In this document: piece by piece, positions 24,693 through 45,882 of the stretch
How positions within the stretch are numbered: the first letter of the stretch is position 1
Layout: every line of letters begins with the position of its first letter
Assembly: GCA_018698795.1 (NCBI GenBank)
Contig: JABIPG010000175.1
Coordinates: 1 to 49,932, forward strand
Direction of reading: 5' to 3'
From: Rhodospirillaceae bacterium
GTDB lineage: Bacteria > Pseudomonadota > Alphaproteobacteria > Rhodospirillales > Casp-alpha2
DNA length: 49,932 bases
The notes under the pieces: model-generated
Databases searched by the model: none
Told to the model about the DNA's origin: nothing
The model's input: the letters and a program-made list of their open reading frames with translations, nothing else
Made by a program: the position numbers and the translations under genes

Positions 24693-24695
24693 ATA

Positions 24696-24709
24696 GATAA
24701 AATTTTATC
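24696..24709. promoter_or_regulatory. 14-bp palindrome upstream of tadE, shared with the flp promoter region
   Basis: GATAAAATTTTATC is a perfect palindrome in the 92-bp gap between the PLP enzyme and the first tadE gene. The identical 14 bp forms the core of a longer palindrome at 31287-31312, upstream of flp. A possible -10 hexamer CATAAT lies at 24757-24762, with a weak TTCGTG 18 bp upstream of it. The shared site suggests a common DNA-binding protein; which one is unknown. Confidence 0.6.
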
Positions 24710-24784
24710 AAAAATTACAGGTATTTAATTCATTCGTGCTGACGCATTGGCGTTGCCATAATGGGGTATTCAGGAGACTGCCCC

Positions 24785-25360
24785 ATGACCTTCACACGCC
24801 TGTTCAAGCCATTTCTGAAAGACGAAAACGGCTCGCCCTCCGTGGAGTTTGCCTTTGCCGCCCTACCGTTGGTGATGATGGTGGTCGGGACCATGGAATT
24901 CGGCATGATCATGTTTACCTCGACGTTGATGGAGAGCGGCCTCAGGGATGCGGCGCGCTTCGGCATCACCGGCGAAGTGCCCGATGCGCAAAGCCGGCTG
25001 GAACGGATCATCGATATCATTGGTGAACGCACCCTAGGCCTTGTCGACATGGAAGAGGCCGAAATTCAGGTCCTGGTCTATGACAGTTTCGGTGATGTCG
25101 GGCGTGGCGAGGATTTCGTCGATGGTAATGCCAACGGCGCCTATGACGCGGGCGAAACCTACACGGACGAGAACGCCAACGGCCAATGGGACGCCGATGT
25201 GGGGGCGGCTGGTGCCGGGGGCTCGGGCGAGATTGTCGTCTATCGCATGAATTATGCCTGGCCGCTGCTGACGCCGCTGGTCGGGCACGTGATCGGCAAT
25301 GAGGGAGGTTTCGCGCTTCGCGCCGCCGTTGCTGTCCGCAATGAGCCTTGGGAAACCTAG
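24785..25360 (+). CDS. TadE-like pseudopilin with EF-hand-like loops
   Basis: The ATG at 24785, with CAGGAG upstream, gives 191 residues. The N-terminus NGSPSVEFAFAALPLVMMVVGTMEFGMIMF is the TadE signature: a prepilin-like Glu then a hydrophobic helix. It is expected to be processed by the CpaA peptidase and to act as a minor pilin. Residues 113-124 (DGNANGAYDAGE) fit a 12-residue EF-hand loop at positions 1, 3, 5, 6, 9 and 12, and 128-139 repeat the pattern without the final Glu. A second TadE-like gene follows after 17 bp. Confidence 0.88.
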   Translation: MTFTRLFKPFLKDENGSPSVEFAFAALPLVMMVVGTMEFGMIMFTSTLMESGLRDAARFGITGEVPDAQSRLERIIDIIGERTLGLVDMEEAEIQVLVYDSFGDVGRGEDFVDGNANGAYDAGETYTDENANGQWDADVGAAGAGGSGEIVVYRMNYAWPLLTPLVGHVIGNEGGFALRAAVAVRNEPWET

Positions 25361-25377
25361 AGGGGAAACGCGAACCG

Positions 25378-25929
25378 ATGTTGTCCGCCATTCGTCAATT
25401 CATCCGTAATCGCCGCGGCACGCTCGCCGTGGAGATGGCGATGGCGGTGCCGGTGATTTTTTCGCTGATGCTGGCCGGCGTGGAGGTCACCCGCTATGTG
25501 CTGCTGAATCAAAAGATCGAACGCACGTCGGCAACCATGGCCGATCTGGTGGCGCAATCCGATGTCTTGTCGGAAGCCAGCCTCATCAATCTCACCGGCG
25601 CGGCGGCACATGTGATGACGCCCTACGATATTGATGCCGCCGGGCGCATCGTGGTCTCGTCCTTGACCAATCCGTCGGGCTCCGAAGCTCGCGTTGCCTG
25701 GCAGCGCGGTTATGGCGCCGGTGCGGGCGCCAGCCATTTCGGCCTCGAAGGTGGCCCGGCGCAATTGCCCGACGGTTTCGTCGTTCGAGGTGGCGAGAAC
25801 GTCATTGCGGTTGAGGTGTTCTACGCCTACGAGCCCATGCTGGCCGCCAAGGTCATGGGTGCGAAAGAACTCTATAACTTCGCGCTGTTTCGCCCGCGCT
25901 TCGGCTCGCTGGCTTCGCTGTCGCCCTAG
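25378..25929 (+). CDS. Second TadE-like pseudopilin
   Basis: From the ATG at 25378 this is a 183-residue protein with the TadE/G N-terminal helix NRRGTLAVEMAMAVPVIFSLMLAGVEVTRYVLL, including the Glu after the cleavage region. The remainder (SATMADLVAQSDVLSEASLINL and IAVEVFYAYEPML) is typical of TadE/TadF-like minor pilins. Upstream in-frame codons to 25348 overlap the previous gene and lack the motif. The stop shares bases with the stop of the convergent Crp/Fnr gene (CTAG). Confidence 0.87.
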   Translation: MLSAIRQFIRNRRGTLAVEMAMAVPVIFSLMLAGVEVTRYVLLNQKIERTSATMADLVAQSDVLSEASLINLTGAAAHVMTPYDIDAAGRIVVSSLTNPSGSEARVAWQRGYGAGAGASHFGLEGGPAQLPDGFVVRGGENVIAVEVFYAYEPMLAAKVMGAKELYNFALFRPRFGSLASLSP

Positions 25930-26480
25930 AGCAAGTTGTTGCGACGTTTCGCCAGTTCCCGATACAGCGCTTCGGGGCTGACGCCGATCTGCTCGGCGAC
26001 GCCTTTCCATTGCCCTTTGTCCGGCAATTCGTTGTCGTGCCAGTCGAGCCAGCCGTCGAGGCGCTCAGTAACGGTTCTCCGCGCCAGGATTTCTCCGCGG
26101 TGACGTGCCGATTGTACCGCTCGGGCCAAGTGCGCTGCCCAGGCGTGAGAGGCGTCCGGGTTTTGGCGCAAGTGGGTCACGAATGCCGCCTGCGACAGAT
26201 CGAACACGTGTGATGGAGCGTCGGCAATGGCGTCGCAATGATAAGCCTCGGCGTAGACCGAGGCTTCGGCCAAGATCGAATTTTGGGTGGCGCGTTGCAC
26301 GACGATGGGCATGCCGTCCCGTTGGTGGCGGACAAGTTGGACTGAGCCGGACTCAACAATAAACACCCGCCTGACGGGGTCGCCTTGATGAAATAGATAA
26401 CCGCCGGACGGCAACGCGCGTCGATTGCCCGATAGCGCCAGCAGTGCTTCGATAAATGATGCATACATGATGACTATCAT
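25926..26480 (-). CDS. Crp/Fnr-family transcriptional regulator
   Basis: The 184-residue product (180 if ATG 26468 is used) has an N-terminal cNMP-type sensor barrel (LPSGGYLFHQGDPVRRVFIVESGSVQLVRH) and a C-terminal helix-turn-helix (WKGVAEQIGVSPEALYRELAKRRNNLL). No Fnr-type cysteine cluster is seen, so it does not look like an oxygen-sensing Fe-S Fnr; the ligand is unknown. No ribosome-binding site marks the start. A Crp/Fnr-shaped inverted repeat covers both candidate start codons, suggesting autoregulation. It is divergent from the Spy-like gene and convergent with the second tadE. Confidence 0.87.
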   Translation of the reverse strand: MIVIMYASFIEALLALSGNRRALPSGGYLFHQGDPVRRVFIVESGSVQLVRHQRDGMPIVVQRATQNSILAEASVYAEAYHCDAIADAPSHVFDLSQAAFVTHLRQNPDASHAWAAHLARAVQSARHRGEILARRTVTERLDGWLDWHDNELPDKGQWKGVAEQIGVSPEALYRELAKRRNNLL

Positions 26481-26483
26481 GTA
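26464..26483. promoter_or_regulatory. Candidate Crp/Fnr operator
   Basis: TACATGAT and ATCATGTA flank a 4-bp spacer (GACT), a perfect inverted repeat. The TGAT-N4-ATCA core has the half-site spacing of the Crp/Fnr family. It overlaps the start of the Crp/Fnr gene and lies 58 bp before the start of the divergent Spy-like gene, so it could control both. Binding is inferred. Confidence 0.65.
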
Positions 26484-26540
26484 GTGGAAATGACGGAGAT
26501 GGCAAATTCGGGCGATCGTCGACCGACAGGAGACATATGG

Positions 26541-27092
26541 ATGAAATACTCTCTCGCTTTGATCGTGGTGCTAAGTTTTCTCGTTGGCATCAAGGCTGAC
26601 CCCCAGGCTGCCGAAAATCACAAAACCCACTCGCATGCCCACAAGGCTTCCCAGCACGGCGCCTATGCGGGGCAGCAGGCGCGTGCAATCAAAAGCCTGT
26701 CGCCCGACGATATTGCCGAACTTGAGCGTGGCGGCGGATGGGGTTTGGCAAAGGCGGCGGAATTGAACGGCGTGCCCGGGCCGGCGCATTTGCTGGAACT
26801 AAAAGCCGAGATTGCGCTCTCCGATGCACAGATCGCCGCCGTGCAAAGCTTGTACGCGGGTATGAAAGCCGATGCCATCGAACAGGGGAAGCGGCTCATA
26901 GCGCTTGAGGGCGAATTGGAACAACACTTCCGCGACGGCACCATCACCGATGCGATATTGCAGTCGTCGCTGCAATCCATCGCGTCGGTGCGCCAACGGT
27001 TGCGGTATATCCATCTGTCGACGCACCTCAAGACACCGGCAATTCTTTCGAAACCCCAGATCACGCGTTACAACACCCTTCGCGGTTATTGA
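26541..27092 (+). CDS. Spy/CpxP-like periplasmic protein (metal-resistance type)
   Basis: The ATG at 26541 has AGGAG 8 bp upstream and gives 183 residues starting with a signal peptide (MKYSLALIVVLSFLVGIKADPQA). A His-rich stretch follows (HKTHSHAHKASQH). The body is alpha-helical: LLELKAEIALSDAQIAAVQSLYAGMKADAIEQGKRLIALEGELEQHFRDG, the pattern of periplasmic heavy-metal-sensing and Spy/CpxP chaperone-like proteins. It may bind metal or protect envelope proteins. The MBL-fold gene follows after 54 bp. Confidence 0.75.
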   Translation: MKYSLALIVVLSFLVGIKADPQAAENHKTHSHAHKASQHGAYAGQQARAIKSLSPDDIAELERGGGWGLAKAAELNGVPGPAHLLELKAEIALSDAQIAAVQSLYAGMKADAIEQGKRLIALEGELEQHFRDGTITDAILQSSLQSIASVRQRLRYIHLSTHLKTPAILSKPQITRYNTLRGY

Positions 27093-27146
27093 GGGTCCAT
27101 TCCACAACAAACCATGACCCAACAATTGTTAACGAGGAGGGTGACG

Positions 27147-28070
27147 ATGACGGCAGCGTTTCTTCGGTCCGGCCTGACGGCCGTCGCGGTTTTGATGATG
27201 GCCACAGCCGCCCACGCCCTGGATACGGTGAAGGTCGCGCAGGGCGTTTATGCGCTGGTCGGCGCGTTGGAGCAGCGCTCGCCGGAAAATCTCGGCAACA
27301 ATGCCACTTTCGGCGTCATCATCACCAAAGCCGGCGTGATTTTGGTCGACCCGGGCGGCAGCGCTAAAGGTGCGGCTGCCATCGACGCTGCCATCGCCAA
27401 GCTGACTGATAAGCCCGTCAAGGTCGTCATCAACACCGGCGGCCAGGACCACCGATGGTTCGGCAATCATTATTTCAAGGCCAAGGGTGCGAAGATCATC
27501 GCGTCGGCGGCAGCTGTGGAAGATCAAAAAGACCGCGCCGACATTCAATGGCAGGTGATCCAAACCTTGATCGGCGCCGATAACGCCAAGGGCACTGAAC
27601 TGGTCCACGCCGACACCCAATTCGACGAGACCCACACCTTCACTTTGGGTGGCGAGCGTGTCGAACTGGTGCATGCGGGCCAGGCACACACGCCGGGTGA
27701 TGCGTTTGTCTGGCTGCCGGCCAGGAAAATCCTTTTCGCCGGCGATATCGTCTATCTGGATCGCATGTTGGGCGTCAATGCGTCGTCGAATTCCAAGTCG
27801 TGGCTGGAGGTGTTTTCGGCACTGGAAGCGCGTAAGCCCGAGATTGTCGTGCCGGGACACGGTCGCCCCGCACCGTTGGCCAAAGCGCAGGCTGAGACAC
27901 GCGATTATTTGGCGCATCTGCGAAAGCACATCGGCGCCTTGGTGGAGACCGGCGGGTCGATGGTCGATGCCAAGGCGATCGATCAGTCGGCGTTCAAGCA
28001 TCTAGGTGTGTTCGAGCAGATCTCGCGGCGCAACGCACAGGCGGTGTTTGCTGAAATGGAGTTCGAATAG
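27147..28070 (+). CDS. Exported MBL-fold protein with an altered metal motif
   Basis: The ATG at 27147 is preceded by GAGGAGG and a 7-bp spacer, and gives 307 residues with a signal peptide (MTAAFLRSGLTAVAVLMMATAAHA). An upstream ATG at 27114 lacks such a site. The fold is metallo-beta-lactamase, but the HxHxDH motif reads TGGQDH in VVINTGGQDHRWFGN. The Asp and His of the second metal site remain, and so do AHTPGD, FAGDIVYLDRM and VPGHGRP. A one-metal or non-zinc enzyme is possible. The function is not known. Confidence 0.83.
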   Translation: MTAAFLRSGLTAVAVLMMATAAHALDTVKVAQGVYALVGALEQRSPENLGNNATFGVIITKAGVILVDPGGSAKGAAAIDAAIAKLTDKPVKVVINTGGQDHRWFGNHYFKAKGAKIIASAAAVEDQKDRADIQWQVIQTLIGADNAKGTELVHADTQFDETHTFTLGGERVELVHAGQAHTPGDAFVWLPARKILFAGDIVYLDRMLGVNASSNSKSWLEVFSALEARKPEIVVPGHGRPAPLAKAQAETRDYLAHLRKHIGALVETGGSMVDAKAIDQSAFKHLGVFEQISRRNAQAVFAEMEFE

Positions 28071-28139
28071 GGAAAAATCGGGATAAAATTGTTTTACGTC
28101 AATTGTGCGGGATCAATGCCGTGCTACTTTCATGCCGTT

Positions 28140-28151
28140 ATGATCGATCAT
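28140..28151. promoter_or_regulatory. 12-bp palindrome upstream of the usp gene
   Basis: ATGATCGATCAT is a perfect palindrome 34 bp before the universal stress protein gene. Its half-sites (ATGAT/ATCAT) match those of the operator at 26464-26483, but the spacing is 2 rather than 4 bp, so the same protein may not bind it. Confidence 0.3.
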
Positions 28152-28185
28152 CAGCCGAACAAGCAGGCATGAAAGGAGTGAGGTC

Positions 28186-28605
28186 ATGAAGAAGATTTTG
28201 GTAGCGATCGACATCGCCCGAACGGGCGGCAACGATCTCGTCATCCAGACGGCTAAGGATTTGGCCGGCGCCATGGGCAGCGAAGTGGCCATGCTGCACG
28301 TTATTGAACCAACGCCGAGCTACGTCCTTGCCGAAGTGCCGCAAGGCGTGCTGGCCAAGCGCCAAGAAGTGGCGGCGGAGGAACTCCGTAAAATTGCTGC
28401 AACCCACGACCTCACCGAGGCTGTGGTGCGCGAAGGTCCGCCGGCAACGGAAATTCTCGACTATGCTGAAAAGATCGGCGCCGAGTTGATTGTGTTGCAT
28501 TCTCACGACCCGGACCTTTCCGACTACTTCATCGGGTCTGTGGCGGTTCGCGTGGTGCGCCATGCGCATTGCTCGGTGCATGTCGTGCGCCAGGCGAGCG
28601 CGTGA
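28186..28605 (+). CDS. Universal stress protein (UspA family)
   Basis: The 139-residue protein starts MKKILVAIDIARTGG and ends YFIGSVAVRVVRHAHCSVHVVRQASA, a single Usp domain. The ATP-type glycine loop is partly altered (HSHDPDLSDYFIGSVAVRVV). A strong ribosome-binding site, GAAAGGAGTGAGGTC, precedes the ATG. Such proteins aid survival under energy or oxidative stress. The last seven codons and the stop lie in the first copy of a tandem 28-bp duplication. Confidence 0.92.
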   Translation: MKKILVAIDIARTGGNDLVIQTAKDLAGAMGSEVAMLHVIEPTPSYVLAEVPQGVLAKRQEVAAEELRKIAATHDLTEAVVREGPPATEILDYAEKIGAELIVLHSHDPDLSDYFIGSVAVRVVRHAHCSVHVVRQASA

Positions 28606-28668
28606 ATGTGTCGTGCGCCAGGCGAGCGCGTGAATGTATCGTGCGTGATGTGGCGAGCGCGTAGACAT
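28581..28668. repeat. 28-bp tandem duplication at the usp stop, with a decayed third copy
   Basis: Units 28581-28608 and 28609-28636 are identical over 28 bp. A third, degenerate copy runs from 28637 to about 28668. The first copy codes for the end of Usp and its stop; the others are downstream. It looks like a recent local duplication on top of an older one. Confidence 0.9.
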
Positions 28669-28710
28669 GCTATGCGCAAAGCGCGCGATGGTGGCCAAGG
28701 TGTCTGAGTG

Positions 28711-29127
28711 ATGGCTCATCAACGGTTTCGGCGTTACAACACCAAGGATATCTATGCCGGCCAGGCGCTCGATAACGACCTCGCCATGGCAGTGCGCGCC
28801 GGCAACCGCATCTGGCTGCGTGGCCAGACCGGACTTGATCTCGACGGTAACTTCATCGGCGTTGGCGATGCCGCGGCGCAGGCGGAAAATGCCATGCATT
28901 GCGTCCAGGTGTTGTTGGAAGAGGCCGGCTCGGAGCTCAGCCATATCGTCAAGACGACCATCTACCTCACCGACCAAGCCGACCGCGAGGCCGTTTACGG
29001 CGTGGTGGGGCGCTGGCTCAAGGGGGTGTTTCCGTGTCAGACCGGCCTCATCGTCGCTGGTTTGGCGAAGCCCGAAATGTTGATGGAAATCGACATCGAG
29101 GCGGTGATTCCAGACGACGAAGCTTGA
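28711..29127 (+). CDS. Rid-family (YjgF/YER057c/UK114) protein lacking the catalytic Arg
   Basis: The ATG at 28711 gives 138 residues; a GTG three bases earlier is possible. The Rid fold is clear (RAGNRIWLRGQTGLDLDG, AQAENAMHCVQVLLEEAGSELSHIVKTTIYLTD, GLAKPEMLMEIDIEAVIP). RidA enzymes deaminate reactive 2-aminoacrylate using an Arg after the FPxR block. Here that block reads FPCQTG, so Arg is replaced by Gln. This points to a Rid subfamily without imine deaminase activity. The neighbours are usp and a PAS_5 gene. Confidence 0.87.
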   Translation: MAHQRFRRYNTKDIYAGQALDNDLAMAVRAGNRIWLRGQTGLDLDGNFIGVGDAAAQAENAMHCVQVLLEEAGSELSHIVKTTIYLTDQADREAVYGVVGRWLKGVFPCQTGLIVAGLAKPEMLMEIDIEAVIPDDEA

Positions 29128-29158
29128 GCAGAGCGCATCCAGGCCATACCATTATGCC

Positions 29159-29674
29159 ATGGAAAAGATAGCCGCACGCTCGATCGGGTGGGAAGATTTG
29201 TCCGATGATTTGCGCTGCGCTCATGAGTATTGGAAATCCCTGACCGCCGAACGTATCGCGCCATCGTGGACCAGCTTTGATCTTTCTCAATGTCCGAGCC
29301 GATTGCTGCCGACCACGATCGTCCTTGATGTCATCAATGGTGGTGGCGGCTACCAATTTCGTTTCTTTGGTTCCGGCCTTGTGCAAGCGCATGGCCGTGA
29401 GATGACGGGGTATCTGGTGACGGAATTGCCGCACAAGGGACTGGGCGATTTTCTCCGGAAAAGATTTAATGCCGTGGCTGCATCAAAGACTTTCGATTTC
29501 GGCGAGGTCGGTTTCGAAGATCAGAACGGATTTCATGGTTTGCAACGTTCCGGCCGATGGCCACTCTCGGACGACGGCGAACGGGTGAGTGGAATCGTGT
29601 CGGTCATCGATATGGAAATCTCTCGACGAGAGATGGAAGAGGTTGTGGGCGGGCACGACAGCGCTTCTGATTGA
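29159..29674 (+). CDS. PAS_5-family protein
   Basis: The 171-residue product matches the PAS_5 pattern of alphaproteobacteria: YWKSLTAERIAPSWTSFDLSQCPSRLLPTTIVLDVI, then YQFRFFGSGLVQAHGREMTGYLV. No output domain is attached. Such single PAS proteins have unknown ligands and are often found near flagellar, chemotaxis or stress genes. It begins 31 bp after the Rid gene and ends 33 bp before the convergent tadG stop. Confidence 0.8.
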   Translation: MEKIAARSIGWEDLSDDLRCAHEYWKSLTAERIAPSWTSFDLSQCPSRLLPTTIVLDVINGGGGYQFRFFGSGLVQAHGREMTGYLVTELPHKGLGDFLRKRFNAVAASKTFDFGEVGFEDQNGFHGLQRSGRWPLSDDGERVSGIVSVIDMEISRREMEEVVGGHDSASD

Positions 29675-29707
29675 CCGAGCGGTGAAATTTGGTCCGCCAT
29701 CTTCGAG

Positions 29708-31174
29708 TTACTTCGCCAGCCTCAGTTCCGACAAATGGTTGGCGATTTCGCGGAACACCTGCTGCAAGGCGTCGCCGTTGGGGGCGTAATAATAGTATGG
29801 CGAGTTGGGTCCGCTGGCGACGTCTTTCAAAAGCTGTTGCAGCGCGCCGCCCGAATTGGCGAATTGAATAACGTAGATGATCACGCCGTCGGCTTTGATG
29901 TTATTGGCCAATGCCAACAATCGTGCATTCATTTCCGGGCCCGCGGGTGTGCCGCGACCGAATACGGTCTTGTAGCCGTCACCGACGCCGCCGGTGTTTT
30001 CGCCGTCGGTGAGCAACACGATGGCGCGTTGCAGGTCGTAATCGGGGTCGGCAACGGCTTCGGTAAAGGGAGCTTCGGGTTTCAGCGCGCGCCACGCCCA
30101 GCCCAAGCCCGCCGGAATGTTGGTGGTCCCGGTGGGGCTTTGCAGCTCGCTGATGGCGTCGAGCACGTCTTGTTTCACGTTATCTAACGGCGAGATGCCG
30201 TAGTACGGACAGCGCGTGCATTCGCTGCCACCCACGGTCATGGCGCATTTGCCCGAGCCCGGAAACGGATCGCCGGCAAACCCAATCGGTTCCCACGCCA
30301 TCCAATCCGCGTCGGGAACTTCGACCGGCCCCAACAGCGCATCGGCATCGGACGTGGGCAAGCCGTCGTGCAGATAGCGATTGAAGACACAGCCGCTCCA
30401 GGTTGGCTCGGGTGCCGACAACAGCGCCACCGGCGAGTTATTGGCGAACCAGACCTCGCTTTGCGCCGTACCCGTGACCGGGTTGATGAAGGCATCCACG
30501 GCCTGGCTGGTGGTCAGCGCGGAATCGTAGGATTCGCCCTGGCGCATGACTTTAACTTTGCCCGCCCAAGGCACCACGCCGATGTTCAAGAAATCTTTCT
30601 CGGTGTCACCGCCGAACAAGATGCTGACCAGCTCTGTCGCCGCCGAGCGCGCCGCCGAGATGCGTGAGCCGCCTGACCCCGACGACCAATTCATGGATCC
30701 CGACATATCGATGGAGAGGACGACATCAAGCGCCACCATCTTGCGCACCACTTCCGCCGATGCATCGACCGTCAGCTCATTGTGGCCGAGCAAGTGCATG
30801 AAGCTGGTCGGGATGGTGGCGCGCGCATAAAGATGAATGGTCTCGCTTTCTTCGTCGATGGTCTTGGTCGGGCCTTCCAGTGTGGAGCCCATGTAGCCGG
30901 TCGGAAAATTCGCCTGAAAGAACATGTCGATGTCGGCGTCGCGGGTGGCGGCGAAGAAGCTGCGTCCGCCCGCCAGTCCCGCCGCATCAAGTGCCGACGA
31001 CAGGCGAGATTTTACCAAGTAGGCGCGCGCCACGTCCGTGCCGACACCGACGAAACCGATCATCGGGATGGTGGCGAAAGCCAAAAACACCATCACCGCG
31101 CCACGCTCATCGAGCAACAATCGGCGTTTGATGGTGTTCAGTTGGGTCAGAAAATCGTCAATGACATGCCACAT
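29708..31174 (-). CDS. tadG: TadG-like pilus assembly protein with vWA domain
   Basis: This 488-residue protein begins with a TadE/G-type N-terminal helix (DERGAVMVFLAFATIPMIGFVGVGTDVARAYLV). A von Willebrand A domain follows, with the MIDAS motif DMSGSM at Asp156, ASP/Ser positions 156, 158 and 160, and LLTDGENTGG. It is anchored in the inner membrane, with the vWA part in the periplasm. By family it assists Tad pilus assembly or adhesion. It is transcribed divergently from flp across a 289-bp AT-rich control region. Confidence 0.9.
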   Translation of the reverse strand: MWHVIDDFLTQLNTIKRRLLLDERGAVMVFLAFATIPMIGFVGVGTDVARAYLVKSRLSSALDAAGLAGGRSFFAATRDADIDMFFQANFPTGYMGSTLEGPTKTIDEESETIHLYARATIPTSFMHLLGHNELTVDASAEVVRKMVALDVVLSIDMSGSMNWSSGSGGSRISAARSAATELVSILFGGDTEKDFLNIGVVPWAGKVKVMRQGESYDSALTTSQAVDAFINPVTGTAQSEVWFANNSPVALLSAPEPTWSGCVFNRYLHDGLPTSDADALLGPVEVPDADWMAWEPIGFAGDPFPGSGKCAMTVGGSECTRCPYYGISPLDNVKQDVLDAISELQSPTGTTNIPAGLGWAWRALKPEAPFTEAVADPDYDLQRAIVLLTDGENTGGVGDGYKTVFGRGTPAGPEMNARLLALANNIKADGVIIYVIQFANSGGALQQLLKDVASGPNSPYYYYAPNGDALQQVFREIANHLSELRLAK

Positions 31175-31286
31175 AAGCGGCTCCCGTGGGTTGATTTGCT
31201 GCTCTCCGGCGACTGCCCATTCTTTATAGTATTACTTGCGAGCGCAAATCTTTTAATCTTGCTTAAATAATTGAAAAACATAAATA

Positions 31287-31312
31287 AAATTAGATAAAAT
31301 TTTATCTAATTT
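31287..31312. promoter_or_regulatory. 26-bp perfect palindrome in the tadG-flp control region
   Basis: All 26 positions are symmetrical around 31299/31300. The central 14 bp, GATAAAATTTTATC, is identical to the site at 24696-24709. It lies between divergent tadG and flp, 40 bp upstream of a good -35 hexamer for flp. A dimeric regulator site is inferred. Confidence 0.75.
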
Positions 31313-31351: not shown

Positions 31352-31380
31352 TTGACTTCAAAGGTAAATTGTTCGTTAAT
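31352..31380 (+). promoter_or_regulatory. Predicted promoter of the flp-tad operon
   Basis: TTGACT (31352-31357) and GTTAAT (31375-31380) are separated by 17 bp. A transcript starting near 31387 would have a leader of about 77 nt before flp, including the GAAGGAGG ribosome-binding site. The region 31200-31460 is strikingly AT-rich. Prediction only. Confidence 0.45.
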
Positions 31381-31463: not shown

Positions 31464-31655
31464 ATGAACACCAATCTGATCAACAAATTCCTGCGCGACG
31501 ACTCTGGCGCCACGGCCATCGAATACGGCCTGATTGCCGCCCTCGTGTCTGTTGCGGCTATTGCAGCTCTGACCGCCATGGGCGGATCTCTGGATGCCAT
31601 GTTCTCGGCTGTTTCCACGGCGCTCAATGGTGCTGTCGGCGGCGGCGGCGGCTGA
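31464..31655 (+). CDS. flp: Flp-type prepilin (major Tad pilin)
   Basis: This 63-residue prepilin has a short leader ending FLRDDSG and then ATAIEYGLIAALVSVAAIAAL. Cleavage after the Gly would give a mature pilin of about 48 residues with Glu5 and Tyr6, the Flp signature. It ends in a Gly-rich tail (VGGGGG). GAAGGAGGTTCAA is a strong ribosome-binding site. It is expected to form the bundled Tad pilus fibre after processing by CpaA. A hairpin follows, which may limit transcription of the downstream genes. Confidence 0.97.
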   Translation: MNTNLINKFLRDDSGATAIEYGLIAALVSVAAIAALTAMGGSLDAMFSAVSTALNGAVGGGGG

Positions 31656-40497: not shown

Positions 40498-40953
40498 TTG
40501 ACGCGACACTACCTGGAACTGACACGGTTGATCGAGCGGTTGCACCGGCGCTATCTGGATGTGCTGCGCTCCGAGTTGAAGCGCGCCGGCGTGCGCGACC
40601 TGAACGGTGTACAGGCGTTGTTGCTGGCCAATATCGGTGACGAAGAGATCGCCATTCGTGACTTGGTGGAGCGCGGCTACTATCAAGGCTCCAACGTGTC
40701 TTACAACATTCGCAAGCTGACGGATTTGGGATATCTGGACCAAGAGCGCGCCGCGCACGATAAACGTTCGGTGCTGGTGCGGTTGACCGACAAGGGGCGT
40801 GACGTGGTTGTCTTGGTCGGCGAGTCCGAAGCCCGCAACGCTGAAGCCTTCACCAAAAAGCTGAGCAACGATGCCGGCCTCGAGCAAGCTTGCGAGAATT
40901 TGCAAAAATTGGAGCGCATGTGGGCGGACTATATCCGCTACGGGGAATTGTAA
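40498..40953 (+). CDS. MarR-family regulator, LdtR-like
   Basis: The only start that keeps the conserved N-terminus is TTG at 40498, giving 151 residues. There is no in-frame ATG upstream close enough. HYLELTRLIERLHRRYLDVLRSELKRAGVRDLNGVQALLLANIGDEEI, then the wing GYYQGSNVSYNIRKLTDLGYLDQERAAHDKRSVLVRLTDKG, closely resemble LdtR of Rhizobiales, a regulator linked to L,D-transpeptidase genes and osmotic stress. No ldt gene is visible here. It sits between the Tad operon and a large hybrid kinase. Confidence 0.85.
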   Translation: MTRHYLELTRLIERLHRRYLDVLRSELKRAGVRDLNGVQALLLANIGDEEIAIRDLVERGYYQGSNVSYNIRKLTDLGYLDQERAAHDKRSVLVRLTDKGRDVVVLVGESEARNAEAFTKKLSNDAGLEQACENLQKLERMWADYIRYGEL

Positions 40954-40995: not shown

Positions 40996-43900
40996 ATGAG
41001 CCCGATTGACCCGGCGGGGGAAACCGCACTTATCCAACAGACCTCGGCTTGGTACCGCACGATCCGCGCCCGGCTGTATACGGCGTTTATCGGACTGATC
41101 GTATTGGCCGCGATCACGACGGGTTTTGCCATATACGGTTTGGTCGAGAACTCCCGCGGCATGGCGAAGTTCGTACACGGTAATTTGCCGGCGGTGAACC
41201 AAGGTATCGACTTGGCAGCGACGACGCGCGACGTGACGCGTGGTTTCCGTGAAATTACCGCCGCCACCACCTTGGAGCAGCGCGACGAGGCGATGGACGA
41301 GATCCGCGAATCTTGGGACAGGTTGACCGAGGTGTTGGCGTTGTCGGAGGGAAAATCCGGTATTCTTTCCGCAACACGCAAGCAGATTGATGTGCGAGTC
41401 GCAACGCTGCGCGAGAAGCTTGGTGATCTGGAAAAGACGGTCGAGAACCGCATCATTGCGTTAAGCGGGCTGTCGGCTGTCAGCGCGCGGATAAACGAGG
41501 ACATGGCCGAATTGGATTGGTCGCTCCAGGCGCTGAAGGACGACGCGCTTGTAGACGTCAATATCGCGGTCGGCGAATTCATGTCCGGCTTGAACACCGA
41601 TATGCGCAGCGTCTCGGGGTTTGTCCACGAGGCCTTTCCTCTCGTCCAGTTTACGTTGGAATTGAGCAGCATGACGAACAGCTTGCGCGCCGTGCTGTTG
41701 GAGGTGCTGACTGCAACCGACAGCGATGAGATAGAAAAGCTGAGGAAAAAAGTCACTGCACTGCGTCAGCGGATCAAATCCAACTTGGGTCAAATCACCA
41801 ACAATGAAATCACCACGGAACTGGAGCCGCAATTTAAAGCCGTATTCGAATCGATCTCGGCCTCGGGCAATCTGTTCGAATGGCGCCACAAGGTTTTGGC
41901 GCTGACCAGTACGATGAATGCGCAGCATCAAGACGCCGTGGAATCATCGCAGGCATTCTTGCGCATCGCATCTGGGTTGTTGGATAAGCTGTTGGCCGAG
42001 TCGAACCGGGTGATTGACGGGGTTGAGCACAAATCGCGCCAGACGCTTTGGATGACGGCGGCGTTGATGGGGCTGAGTGTGCTGATCGTTGTGCTGATCG
42101 GCTGGCTGGTGGTGGAAAGGCGGATTACCCGCCCGTTGAGCCAGACCGCGCGCGCCATGCACAACATCGCGCTGGGTGAGGCGGATGTGGAGTTGCCGCC
42201 GGCGGCTCGCGACGAGATCGGTGACATGGTCGGCGCTTTGAGTGTGCTGCGCGATCATGTCGGCCGGGTGACGGCGGCCGAAGCCCAGGCGGCGGAGAAG
42301 GAAGCGCGAATGCGCTCCATCATCGAAAATACCGTTGACGGGATTATCCTCATTGATGGCGGAGGAATCGTGCAAACCTTTTCGCCGGCGGCCGAACGAA
42401 TTTTTGGATACGACGCGGCGGAGGTTCTCGGCCGGAACGTCAGTATGCTGATGCCCGAAAACGCGGCGACGGCGCACGATTCTTATCTGGCCAGATACCT
42501 TGAAGGCAATGGTGTCGGTGTCGTGGGTTCGATCAGCGAACTGGTGGGACGACGCAAGGACGGTAGTGAGTTCCCGCTGGAACTGGCCGTTGGTGAGGCG
42601 ATCATCGACAACGAACACCTATTTACCGGTATTATCCGAGACATCACCGAACGCAAGGAGGCCGAAGAGCGTTTCACGGCGTATATCGACAACGTTCCGG
42701 CGGGGGTCACGCTGAAAGGTATCGACGGGCGACTGATTTTGGTTAACAAGACCTTCGCCGATTGGTGTGCTTCCACGCCCGAGGAGTTGATCGGAACGAC
42801 GTCCGCCAACAACCCCGTTTGGCAATTGCAGGACGGCGCCGTCCGGACCGTGATCGATCAAGACCGCGAGGTCATGAGGTCCATGAAAACGGTCGTGCAC
42901 GAGCGCACTGTGGTGCTTGCCGATGGGAAAACGCACGATCTCGTGGTGGCGAAATTCCCGATTCTCGATGGCACCGGACGGCTCACGGCTATCGGCACCA
43001 TTCTCAACGACATTTCGAATTTGAAAGAGGCGGAAGCGGCGCTGGCCCAAGAAAAAGCTATCGTCGATAAAACGCTGGCGACCATGGACCAGGGCATCGT
43101 CATGGTTGACGCGGAACTCAACATCATCGCCCACAATAAACGCATGCACGAGCTGTACGACTTGCCGGACGACGCGGTTAAACGGTTTCCGAGCTATCCG
43201 GCCATGGTGCGGTGGAACATGCGCGAACACGGCATCGACGACGCCATCATCGAACGCGCGATGAAGCGTCTTAGTAGCGACAAGCAGGAAGTCTTTGAGC
43301 ATCATTTGAAAGCCGGCCCTGTTCTGGAAATCCGGCATATGCCGATGATTGGCGGCGGGTTTGTCCGCACGTTCACGGATATTTCGGCACGTAAGGCCGC
43401 CGAGCAGGAATTGGTGCGCCTGCGTTTGACAGCTGAGTCCGCCGACCAAGCCAAGTCCGAATTCCTCGCCAACATGAGCCACGAAATTCGCACGCCCATG
43501 AACGCCGTCATCGGTTTGAGCGGGCTGTGCCTGAAAACCGACATGACCGAAAAGCAGCGCGACTACATCTCCAAAGTCAATGGCTCGGCGCGGGCCCTAT
43601 TGGGGATCATCAACGACATCCTCGATTTCTCCAAGATTGAGGCCGGCAAGATGGATATCGAGCATATCCCCTTCAGCTTGGAAGAGGTCATGGACAATCT
43701 GGCCACGGTGGTCACCCAGAAGGCCAGCGAGAAGGGGCTGGAGGTGTTGTTTTGGGCCGAGCCCGACGTGCCCGATGCGTTGGTCGGCGACCCGCTGCGC
43801 GTCGGCCAGATATTGGTCAATCTTGCCAACAACGCGATCAAGTTTACCGAGAAGGGTGAGATCGTCGTCCGTATCGAGACGGTTGAGAAGAACGAAAACG

Positions 43901-45882
43901 ATGCTTTGCTGCAGCTTTCTGTCCGCGACACGGGTATCGGCCTGACCGAAGAGCAACAAGGGCGCCTGTTCCAGGCGTTCAGCCAAGCCGACATGTCGAC
44001 CAGCCGGAAATACGGCGGCACCGGCCTCGGTTTGACCATTTCCAAGAGCTTAGCTGAGGGCATGGGTGGGGAAATCTGGGTCGAGAGTGAAGCCGACGTC
44101 GGATCGACCTTCAGCTTCACCATCCGCTGCGGCTTACGCGAAGAATCAAAGAGGGACCTATCACAGGCCTTCGACCCAGCTGATATTCCGACGCTGATCG
44201 TCGATAACAATACGACCGCCCAGCAAATCCTGGTGAAGATCATGGGCAGCATCGGTTTTCCGGTCGAAGCAGTTGATTCGGGGCAGGCGGGCCTTGACGA
44301 ATTGGGCCGTGCCGCGAGCGCGGGGGCTCCGTACCGGCTGGTGCTGATGGACTGGAACATGCCGGAGATGGACGGCATCGAGACGGCGCGGAGAATCAAA
44401 GGTGACACCAACCTGGAGCCGTCACCGGCGATATTCTTGGTATCGGCGTTCAGCCGCGACGAGATGATTGTGCAGGCGGCAAAATTGGGTTTGGAAGGCG
44501 TGCTGTCCAAGCCGATCAATCCTTCCGTGCTGGTCGATACCCTGATGAACACCTTCGGAGACGGCCAGACCCCTGGTGGCGAAAAGCGCCTGGCGCCGGC
44601 GGACATGGACGAGCCGAAAGCCATTCGGCCTGGATTGCATCTGTTGCTGGTCGAGGACAATGAACTGAACCAGATGGTGGCGGTGGAGATATTGCAGAAC
44701 GCCGGGTTCAGTGTCGACGTGGCGGCGAACGGGAGAATTGGCGTGGACCACATCGCGGCGGCCGATGGCAAGTATGGCGCCGTATTGATGGATTTACAGA
44801 TGCCGGTGATGGACGGATACGAAGCGACCGCGACCATCCGCGCCAACCCCGCATTCGATGATCTACCGATCATCGCCATGACGGCGCATGCCTTGGTAGA
44901 GGAGCGCGAGCGGTGCCTGGAGGCGGGCATGGTTGACCATGTCAGCAAACCCGTGGATGCCCGGCAGTTGATCGATACCATTAACAAGTGGGTCGCGGAC
45001 GGTGGAGCGACGCCGCCGGAAGACGATGAAGACGATGGGTTGTTCGATTTGGAACTGGATCCCGAACCCACATCCGAATCCACACCTGAACCAGATTTCG
45101 AGCCTGAAGATGAGCTCGACGTACCGGCTCTCAACATTACCAAAGCCATCGAACGTCTGATGGTGCCGGACCCGTTCCTGCGGGGCATGCTCGACGAGTT
45201 TCGGGAAAAGTATGGAGATGTGGTCAGCCGACTGCAGCAACTTCTGGCGGACGGCGAACGCGACCAGGCTGAGCGCTTGGCGCATAGTTTGAAGGGCATC
45301 TCCGGGTCCGTCGCCGCCGACCCGGTATACGCCGGGGCTTCGGCATTGGAATCAGCGATCGTTCATGAGCGCGAAGCCGATATCGACAGCGGCATGGCTT
45401 TGTTGCAAGAGCGCATGGAGCTATTGCTGACGGACATCGAGGCCTATCTGGCCAGCGGGCCTGACGGGCCTGACGGATCTGACGGATCTGACACAGCTCG
45501 CGAAGAGATTGCCGAGGTGGATGAGCCGGGCAGTATTGAACCCGAGGGGCCAGCGCTCGATGTCGAGAAAGCCCTGGAACGCCTGATGGTGCCGGAAGAC
45601 TTCTTGAAGAAAATTCTCGGCGATTTCCGTGACAAGTACACGAGCGTTGTCGAAGACCTGCGAGGGCTGCTTGATGACGCCGCCATAGAGGACGCCGAGC
45701 GTATGGCGCACAGTTTGAAGGGCGTTTCGGGCACGCTTGGCGCCGAGCCGGTGCAGGACGTTGCCGCCGAGCTGGAAGAGTCAATCCGCGAAAACCGCGA
45801 CGACGATACCGCCGCCGGCCTTAAAGAATTAAGCCGACGGCTGACGCCGTTGTTACGCGATATCGATACCTATTTGGCCTAG
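40996..45882 (+). CDS. Large hybrid sensor histidine kinase: 2 receivers and 2 Hpt domains
   Basis: This 1628-residue protein has membrane segments near residues 26-48 and 352-372 flanking a helical periplasmic sensor of about 300 residues. HAMP (about 373-425) and three PAS-type domains (about 440-790) follow. The kinase core comes next (H-box with His829; N-box DPLRVGQILVNLANNAIKFT; G-box GTGLGLTISK). Then come two receiver domains (Asp1119 in LVLMDWNMPEMDG, Asp1266 in AVLMDLQMPVMDG) and two Hpt domains (His1430 and His1572 in AHSLKG). This is a full internal phosphorelay with duplicated final steps. The output partner is not in the window. Confidence 0.96.
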   Translation: MSPIDPAGETALIQQTSAWYRTIRARLYTAFIGLIVLAAITTGFAIYGLVENSRGMAKFVHGNLPAVNQGIDLAATTRDVTRGFREITAATTLEQRDEAMDEIRESWDRLTEVLALSEGKSGILSATRKQIDVRVATLREKLGDLEKTVENRIIALSGLSAVSARINEDMAELDWSLQALKDDALVDVNIAVGEFMSGLNTDMRSVSGFVHEAFPLVQFTLELSSMTNSLRAVLLEVLTATDSDEIEKLRKKVTALRQRIKSNLGQITNNEITTELEPQFKAVFESISASGNLFEWRHKVLALTSTMNAQHQDAVESSQAFLRIASGLLDKLLAESNRVIDGVEHKSRQTLWMTAALMGLSVLIVVLIGWLVVERRITRPLSQTARAMHNIALGEADVELPPAARDEIGDMVGALSVLRDHVGRVTAAEAQAAEKEARMRSIIENTVDGIILIDGGGIVQTFSPAAERIFGYDAAEVLGRNVSMLMPENAATAHDSYLARYLEGNGVGVVGSISELVGRRKDGSEFPLELAVGEAIIDNEHLFTGIIRDITERKEAEERFTAYIDNVPAGVTLKGIDGRLILVNKTFADWCASTPEELIGTTSANNPVWQLQDGAVRTVIDQDREVMRSMKTVVHERTVVLADGKTHDLVVAKFPILDGTGRLTAIGTILNDISNLKEAEAALAQEKAIVDKTLATMDQGIVMVDAELNIIAHNKRMHELYDLPDDAVKRFPSYPAMVRWNMREHGIDDAIIERAMKRLSSDKQEVFEHHLKAGPVLEIRHMPMIGGGFVRTFTDISARKAAEQELVRLRLTAESADQAKSEFLANMSHEIRTPMNAVIGLSGLCLKTDMTEKQRDYISKVNGSARALLGIINDILDFSKIEAGKMDIEHIPFSLEEVMDNLATVVTQKASEKGLEVLFWAEPDVPDALVGDPLRVGQILVNLANNAIKFTEKGEIVVRIETVEKNENDALLQLSVRDTGIGLTEEQQGRLFQAFSQADMSTSRKYGGTGLGLTISKSLAEGMGGEIWVESEADVGSTFSFTIRCGLREESKRDLSQAFDPADIPTLIVDNNTTAQQILVKIMGSIGFPVEAVDSGQAGLDELGRAASAGAPYRLVLMDWNMPEMDGIETARRIKGDTNLEPSPAIFLVSAFSRDEMIVQAAKLGLEGVLSKPINPSVLVDTLMNTFGDGQTPGGEKRLAPADMDEPKAIRPGLHLLLVEDNELNQMVAVEILQNAGFSVDVAANGRIGVDHIAAADGKYGAVLMDLQMPVMDGYEATATIRANPAFDDLPIIAMTAHALVEERERCLEAGMVDHVSKPVDARQLIDTINKWVADGGATPPEDDEDDGLFDLELDPEPTSESTPEPDFEPEDELDVPALNITKAIERLMVPDPFLRGMLDEFREKYGDVVSRLQQLLADGERDQAERLAHSLKGISGSVAADPVYAGASALESAIVHEREADIDSGMALLQERMELLLTDIEAYLASGPDGPDGSDGSDTAREEIAEVDEPGSIEPEGPALDVEKALERLMVPEDFLKKILGDFRDKYTSVVEDLRGLLDDAAIEDAERMAHSLKGVSGTLGAEPVQDVAAELEESIRENRDDDTAAGLKELSRRLTPLLRDIDTYLA

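Follow-up and report, generated by a model that had tools for sequence, protein, structure and literature searches.

An 18-bp palindrome at scattered Tad pilus promoters of Rhodospirillales, a candidate operator displaced mostly by whole helical turns

The DNA analysed here (the window) comprises 49,932 nucleotides from a Rhodospirillaceae bacterium, i.e., the whole of contig JABIPG010000175.1 (C187) in a 283-contig assembly of 3.57 Mb (GCA_018698795.1, hereafter G000; 83.9% complete, 5.2% contaminated), and has a GC content of 60%. It harbors Tad pilus genes in separate groups, and one palindrome recurs before the tadE pair and in the divergent control region of tadG and flp, the major pilin gene. 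We consider it likely (a probability of roughly 80%) that this palindrome is the operator of one dimeric factor serving the scattered Tad promoters from one face of the helix, and, as far as sequence can tell, its reach is best explained if that factor controls the tadE pair, tadG and the flp operon, both in this lineage and across many other Rhodospirillales. Across lineages the distance between site and promoter mostly shifts by whole helical turns, a phased spacing that points to a dimeric activator acting from one side of the DNA.

The palindrome and its 18-bp consensus

The exact 14-mer GATAAAATTTTATC lies at 24696-24709 and again at 31293-31306, where it forms the centre of a perfect 26-bp palindrome (31287-31312, no strand) whose symmetry fails at 28 bp. 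Beyond these two the window holds no copy within two mismatches; dinucleotide shuffles predict 0.05 such matches, and 0/100 shuffles gave two. The original prediction, made from the letters of this DNA, had described both copies and put the chance of a second exact one at about 2 in 10,000, a figure that is correct on equal base composition and becomes 1.8e-5 per window at 60% GC. Its names for the tadE pair, tadG and flp held as well, the products of these genes and a prepilin peptidase all scoring above Pfam cut-offs (PF07811 twice, PF13400, PF04964, PF01478). A degenerate third copy that it had placed ahead of usp at 28084-28096 did not survive inspection: it lies in GGATAAAATTGTTTTACG, which retains a single half (mismatches judged by hand), and we rejected it as an instance of the motif.

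Two checks had been proposed alongside, on frequency in the genome and on conservation at the Tad genes of relatives, and both came out in favor of a candidate Tad regulator site. The assembly contains just three exact 14-mers, all in Tad control regions, two of them in the window and the third at a further Tad locus, on contig C230, where it occupies the tadG/flp control region; allowing two mismatches adds eight matches, six of which overlap called open reading frames (ORFs; the calls come from a crude heuristic and include some wrong-frame ORFs) and none of which falls in a Tad-like control region. Among the 48 genomes of the family, seven relatives carry one exact 14-mer each, and six of the seven copies stand at Tad promoters, namely at tadE in G026 (a genome of the same genus), in the tadG/flp region in G028 and G034, and, in G042, G043 and G045, in a region that flp and tadE share; the copy in G011, a genome without an Flp match, lies away from Tad. 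When 30 of the 50 Flp matches were examined for their loci, all 13 flp loci of genera g1, g12 and g14 carried the site at 0-2 mismatches, as against one of 17 in other genera at two mismatches, one at three and the others at four or more; G025, the third g1 genome, gave no Flp match.

The motif proper is longer than the 14-mer that it replaces. We collected the 12-mer ATAAAATTTTAT regardless of its flanks in 16 genomes and compared 32 of the 33 copies (G005:C141 was left out). An outer T at -9 or A at +9 occupies 36/36 half-positions at 18 Tad sites versus 4/20 at ten other copies (p 1e-10), whereas the G/C at +/-7 of the 14-mer is kept in just 24/36 at Tad sites. Because the outer T/A is always kept at Tad sites and seldom at others, the motif in this family is 18 bp, T-N2-ATAAAATTTTAT-N2-A, with T/A at +/-9 firmer than G/C at +/-7. 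In the window its two copies, neither of which has a strand, are TAGATAAAATTTTATCAA at 24694-24711, before the tadE pair and directly after the stop codon of an aminotransferase gene, and TAGATAAAATTTTATCTA at 31291-31308, in the divergent tadG/flp control region. The outer T/A is also intact (8/8) in four copies near genes without a Pfam match, in G028, G033, G034 and G005, and these may be true targets; 12-mers upstream of uvrC in G000 and G026 (0/4 half-positions) were rejected as sites.

Distribution in the order and beyond

In the 317 genomes of the order the exact 14-mer occurs in 36, versus one for a reversed control, and the 18-mer with two mismatches in 77, versus 23 for its reversed control; given this background of 23 genomes, single weak 18-mer matches mean little. 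Wider sequence around the sites added Tad loci in G079, G081 and G087. Sites are present at both tadE and tadG/flp in G083 and G081 (family f10); G087 (f13) has a single site at tadE and a pair of exact ones in tadG/flp, and G079 (f10) has one at flp; of two further genomes discussed below, G082 also belongs to f10 and G121 to f22. A CpaC alignment scan of named genomes yielded 45 loci, of which 26 carry Rhodospirillales, Rhodospirillaceae or Magnetospira in their titles, and found the site in the tadG/flp region of Sneathiella glossodoripedis (L262), Alphaproteobacteria bacterium 46_93_T64 (L266) and two metagenome-assembled genomes (L264, L265); that region of Sneathiella chinensis (L268) has none. 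Of the alignments used, A3 is A2 minus L217, a sequence just 23% identical.

In one clade the site itself has changed. At L247, L248 and L250 the sites at flp and at a second gene share an altered half, TTC[AG]AA instead of ATAAAA, and the gene-proximal half, ATTTTAT, is unchanged. The second gene of L247 encodes a Tad domain and precedes two TadE genes, an arrangement that, by eye, looks the same in L248 and L250. Such a concerted change at two promoters is what a drift in the specificity of one protein would give.

Promoters and helical spacing

Usually one TTGAC, the presumptive -35 element, lies between the site and flp, and spacing was measured from the palindrome centre to the first T of this TTGAC. 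At flp it is 52 in g1 (3 loci), 53 in g12 (8 genomes) and 64 in g14 (3); in other families it is 64 in G079, 75 in G087 and in G081/G083, and 97 in G082. Two further loci gave 98 (L239, from a two-mismatch core) and 43 (L255), and the variant clade gave 96 in four loci and 107 in a fifth. All measured flp spacings leave a remainder of 8-10 when divided by 11. The value for G081/G083 is taken from the nearer core, which has one mismatch; the upper core, an exact one, is 152 bp away from that TTGAC, with a further TTGAC 11 bp from it in G083. The test did not include overlapping two-mismatch cores situated 10 bp upstream in G000, G026 and G028, nor a distant two-mismatch core in L253. Spacing was examined at 45 loci; at L247 and three g2 loci the peptide pattern picked up no flp, and L247 was measured separately. 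For ten lineages without the 107, the Rayleigh test gave R 0.83 at 10.5 bp (p 0.001) and 0.94 at 11 bp, and 0/20,000 uniform draws matched the phasing when the period was allowed to vary from 10.3 to 11.

The phasing was also visible in a blind scan for sigma-70-like promoters, i.e., one without the TTGAC rule, in which 34 of 51 best promoters fell within 1 bp of the series 31+11k (27% expected); this series derives from the flp values, and the 51 include four duplicates (G042, G043), close relatives, and G082 twice, once as L231 (one record, as the site coordinates agree on contig reversal). Without flp and two duplicates, 13/24 tadE/tadG promoters fit the series (binomial p 0.005, kinship ignored). 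In the window, the putative flp promoter TTGACT-17 bp-GTTAAT (31352-31380, + strand) has its -35 starting 52 bp from the palindrome centre, and the putative tadE promoter TTCGTG-18 bp-CATAAT (24733-24762, + strand) 30 bp from it, the latter scoring in the blind scan no better than shuffles in G000 and better in G026. On the opposite side, a possible tadG -35, TTGCGC (31242-31247, - strand), was read by hand at 52 bp; here the blind scan preferred another hexamer, at 43, in G000 and TTGCCT at 52 in G026.

We postulate that a dimer would bind the palindrome upstream of a sigma-70-type promoter with a conserved -35 TTGAC and would, most likely, activate it through contact with RNA polymerase from one helix face, in a class I manner. 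The arrangement expected of such a system, a site upstream of the -35 at whole helical turns, is found, with exceptions at the loci listed below. In g1 and g12, both promoters of the divergent tadG/flp region could be served by one site. If the -35 is set by the TTGAC, or at tadE by its weaker match, the centres of the sites, counted from the putative start points, would lie near -66.5 (tadE), -77.5, -88.5 (flp in g1/g12), -99.5, -110.5 and beyond.

Several observations weigh against a phased operator dedicated to Tad. Many of the genomes are related, so that the counts are not independent. Only three of 22 newly inspected exact loci of the order stand beside Flp or TadE (G082, G083, G121) and eight lie inside called genes, this check leaving out, among others, the copies in G255, G257, G278, G303 and G306; beyond the 16 genomes that defined the consensus, G082, G121 and L255 each miss one outer base. 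Just 15 of the 51 blind promoters beat 85% of shuffles (12 of these 15 fit the series), and the 17 misses include G082/L231 and L255, where the TTGAC was not the top choice. No TTGAC lies between site and flp at seven loci (L262, L264-L266 and G121, and L252 and L260 with variant sites), and the TadG-side promoter of the variant clade has its TTGAC at 71-73, i.e., 2-4 bp off the series.

A candidate regulator at the end of the tad operon

The original prediction had offered three kinds of regulator, the Crp/Fnr protein of the window, an LdtR-like protein or one encoded outside. The first fails, as it does not co-occur with the site: G028 and G034 lack a Crp/Fnr match and G043 and G045 have matches just 31% and 25% identical, yet all four carry an exact site at flp, and likely orthologues (48-54%) are scattered in the family. 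The Crp/Fnr-like gene itself (25926-26480) is short, overlaps the end of tadE2 tail to tail and has a counterpart of 79% identity in G026. The second is favored by gene neighborhood, as a tentative identification. Because of its linkage to the tad operon, the best candidate is the LdtR-like MarR-family regulator encoded at the operon's end (40498-40953, + strand), and that this protein binds the site is a possibility to which we give somewhat less than an even chance. It scores above the MarR cut-offs (PF12802, 46.7 bits against 27; PF13463, 61.3 bits against 22.2), and its best NCBIfam match is the LdtR equivalog NF047395, for which it reaches 153.9 bits, below the cut-off of 250 (two relatives reach 163.6 and 162.4).

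In ten genomes of g1, g12 and g14 with both genes on one contig (G000, six g12, three g14), the tad operon closes with the LdtR-like gene, 9-11 kb past flp; in G026, G028 and G033 the two are on different contigs. It also stands at the operon's end in G054, G083 and G099, from other families, and is kept at the tad locus in f1, f2, f10 and f21. Over the order, co-occurrence of motif and LdtR-like gene (59/18/126/114; 317 genomes, presence lists compiled by hand) gave a Fisher p of 2e-4, versus 0.66 for a reversed-pattern control, kinship uncorrected. Among the matches listed, in genomes with hand-compiled coordinates, 21 of 58 motif sites lie within 25 kb of an LdtR-like gene.

Against this assignment stand, above all, genomes that have the site and no LdtR-like gene: G079, which is 98% complete, the less complete G082 and G087, and G320, which has a variant site. 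No 18-bp motif was found in the 300 bp before LdtR-like genes, and so no sign of autoregulation through it, but in the window the gene may be transcribed together with the tad operon. Linkage to the operon is no predictor of a site at flp, which was found at 8/13 linked versus 7/10 unlinked loci (named loci, counted by hand; L263, whose contig breaks off near tadC, was left out). The recognition helix is the same in L234 and L253, which have no clear site at flp; a recognition-helix Gln (in site-bearing genomes) versus Leu (in g2 and the second copy of g14) was abandoned as a predictor, as both of these loci carry the Gln. Finally, the published Liberibacter sites of LdtR are other sequences (PMC5481520, PMC3999280).

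In g14 (L140, L141, L143) a second LdtR-like gene is found away from Tad; it has genes nearby that by eye are fumarylacetoacetase-like and hydroxypyruvate-isomerase-like, and its setting resembles that of the LdtR-like gene of g2.

Alternative explanations

Another dimeric regulator encoded elsewhere, e.g., a different MarR-fold protein such as a relative of RtrC, might use the same operator and mechanism, leaving the LdtR-like gene a mere passenger, and we rate this almost, if not quite, an even bet. It would account for G079, for the missing site in LdtR-like promoters and for the Sneathiella group, in which the site is present and the LdtR-like gene lies outside the Tad locus. On the other side, the tad loci read have no other regulator at a conserved place (no search was aimed at RtrC), and the LdtR-like gene is both retained at tad loci of four families and associated with the palindrome at the p value given above. 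Whichever protein binds, we infer activation rather than repression. An operator for a repressor, working by looping or blocking, is unlikely, even if most MarR proteins repress (PMC3999280) and LdtR is reported to do either, according to position (PMC5481520): the site lies upstream of the -35 and not over the promoter, LdtR-activated genes tend toward farther upstream sites (PMC5481520), and helix phasing is known for the activator CRP (PMC10882989).

Two explanations would dispense with a specific protein. In one, DNA shape alone matters, i.e., an intrinsically bent A4T4 whose curvature, phased with the promoter, helps the polymerase. The core is indeed AAAATTTT, the spacing is helically phased and the control regions are AT-rich, but the A-tract is not the distinguishing feature, because AAAATTTT alone occurs 63 times in the assembly of the window, only four of these extending to ATAAAATTTTAT and three to the full motif, all at Tad. 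Moreover, the discriminating bases lie outside the A-tract, and the variant clade breaks the tract (TTC[AG]AATTTT), yet both of its promoters change together; we regard this explanation as very improbable. In the other, two AT-rich stretches resemble each other by chance or through mere shared ancestry. The closest genomes are related, some exact copies sit in unrelated places (the eight of 22 inside called genes, and G011), and the two-mismatch 18-mer still has its 23 control genomes against 77, but the exact 14-mer, with one control genome against 36, and the sharing of the site by two unrelated promoters of one genome and by Tad promoters of other families reduce its probability to next to nothing.

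Returning to the helically phased operator with the LdtR-like protein as its binder, a broader reading can be framed, which we put forward as doubtful. In it, the LdtR-like MarR protein tied to the tad operon would be a dedicated surface-attachment activator in Rhodospirillales and Sneathiella relatives, with a regulon and an operator history to match: through one 18-bp operator it would switch on Tad pili together with, in certain genera, small envelope genes and secreted proteins of the RTX type; the operator would have moved only by whole turns, about 4 to 10 of them upstream of the -35, and its half-site would have changed in concert in one clade.

Relation to known systems

In Caulobacter, CtrA controls pilA, an instance of Flp-type pilin gene control in Alphaproteobacteria, and recognises TTAA-N7-TTAA, unlike the 18-bp palindrome described here; a few model bacteria aside, the means by which Tad pili are turned on are largely uncharted. 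A literature search (from which subscription papers fall outside) gave nothing, by title or abstract, about a regulator of Tad that uses this site, and the 14-mer, 18-mer and 20-mer had a sole match in the searched text, a PCR paper on Mycoplasma hominis. The proposed operator and regulon are new, and the unusual part is the evolutionary record of whole-turn shifts. It would be a natural cross-family case of helical phasing, the same activator site on the same promoter repeatedly shifted by full turns. The analysis specifies the operator precisely, names a candidate for its regulator and predicts, in quantitative terms, that steps of 11 bp are tolerated and steps of 5 bp are not.

LdtR of Liberibacter and Sinorhizobium belongs, by sequence, to the same protein family as the window protein and is an activator with AT-rich inverted-repeat sites, located upstream of the -35 at ldtP (PMC3999280, PMC5481520). 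Apart from the low equivalog score and the different sites, it differs in activating its own gene, whereas here the LdtR-like genes have no motif before them; the main text of PMC5481520 contains no word beginning with flp or pil. Class I activation by CRP of Escherichia coli likewise uses a site upstream of the -35 at whole helical turns, and such sites work at -61.5, -71.5, -81.5 and -91.5 (PMC10882989). The differences are that the series described here emerges from comparing the natural promoters of one gene across lineages, that the centres proposed above lie about half a turn out of the -61.5/-71.5 series of CRP, so that the principle alone is shared, and that the Crp/Fnr-like protein of the window is not conserved along with the site. 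RtrC of Caulobacter, reported to be largely restricted to Caulobacterales and Rhodospirillales, shares a MarR-like predicted fold, a pseudo-palindromic site, control of a surface adhesin and upstream activation, but works through hfiA (PMC9648850).

Further sites and neighboring genes

Contig C230 of G000 (L110, 1-4376) carries tadG-flp-tadV-cpaB-cpaC with the same palindrome at the same 52-bp spacing, and either represents a second Tad locus of the organism or has strayed into the assembly from a relative. G042 and G043 have a further Tad-domain gene, set apart from the others, with a site of its own in a region from which an RTX-repeat gene and an ABC transporter gene diverge. In g14 (L095, 14441-14458; L096, around 8655), the palindrome lies between a Tad-domain gene and an RTX-repeat gene (PF00353), with an ABC transporter gene next, and export of the RTX protein may be under the same switch as Tad there. 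The motif with its outer T/A recurs a few kb from the LdtR-like gene in three g12 genomes (L099, 18227-18244; L102, 6030-6047; L103, 4210-4227); in G028 and G034 it precedes the gene of a small protein, with no Pfam match where tested (G034). In G005 (g2) two copies (L209, 6834 and 10147) lie 7-11 kb from the LdtR-like gene, with none clear at flp; the one neighboring gene that was tested gave no Pfam match. Labels of MlaA/VacJ for the site-bearing g12 gene (L099, 18324-18917) and of LptC for the G005 site were withdrawn, the proteins tested having no Pfam match. In G079 an exact 18-bp motif (L218, 5432-5449) stands before a large gene with FecR and cadherin-like domains; the site in G054 (L210, 7384), which precedes a FecR-domain gene and is itself 1.5 kb from flp, was not counted as a Tad promoter.

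On the + strand of the window, tadE1 is called at 24761-25360 (PF07811, 39.5 bits), its true start more likely being the in-frame ATG at 24785, and is followed by tadE2 at 25348-25929 (PF07811, 26.7 bits). The tadG gene, with Tad and VWA domains (PF13400, PF00092), occupies 29708-31174 on the - strand, and flp, at 31464-31655 on the + strand (PF04964, 66.1 bits), opens the tad operon. Next to tadG, the product of 29159-29674 matches MopJ, a cell-cycle/motility regulator, weakly (34.9 bits against a cut-off of 200) and has no Pfam match. After the LdtR-like gene, 40996-45882 encodes a protein of 1628 amino acids resembling hybrid histidine kinases, and the start of a similar protein also follows the LdtR-like gene in G026.

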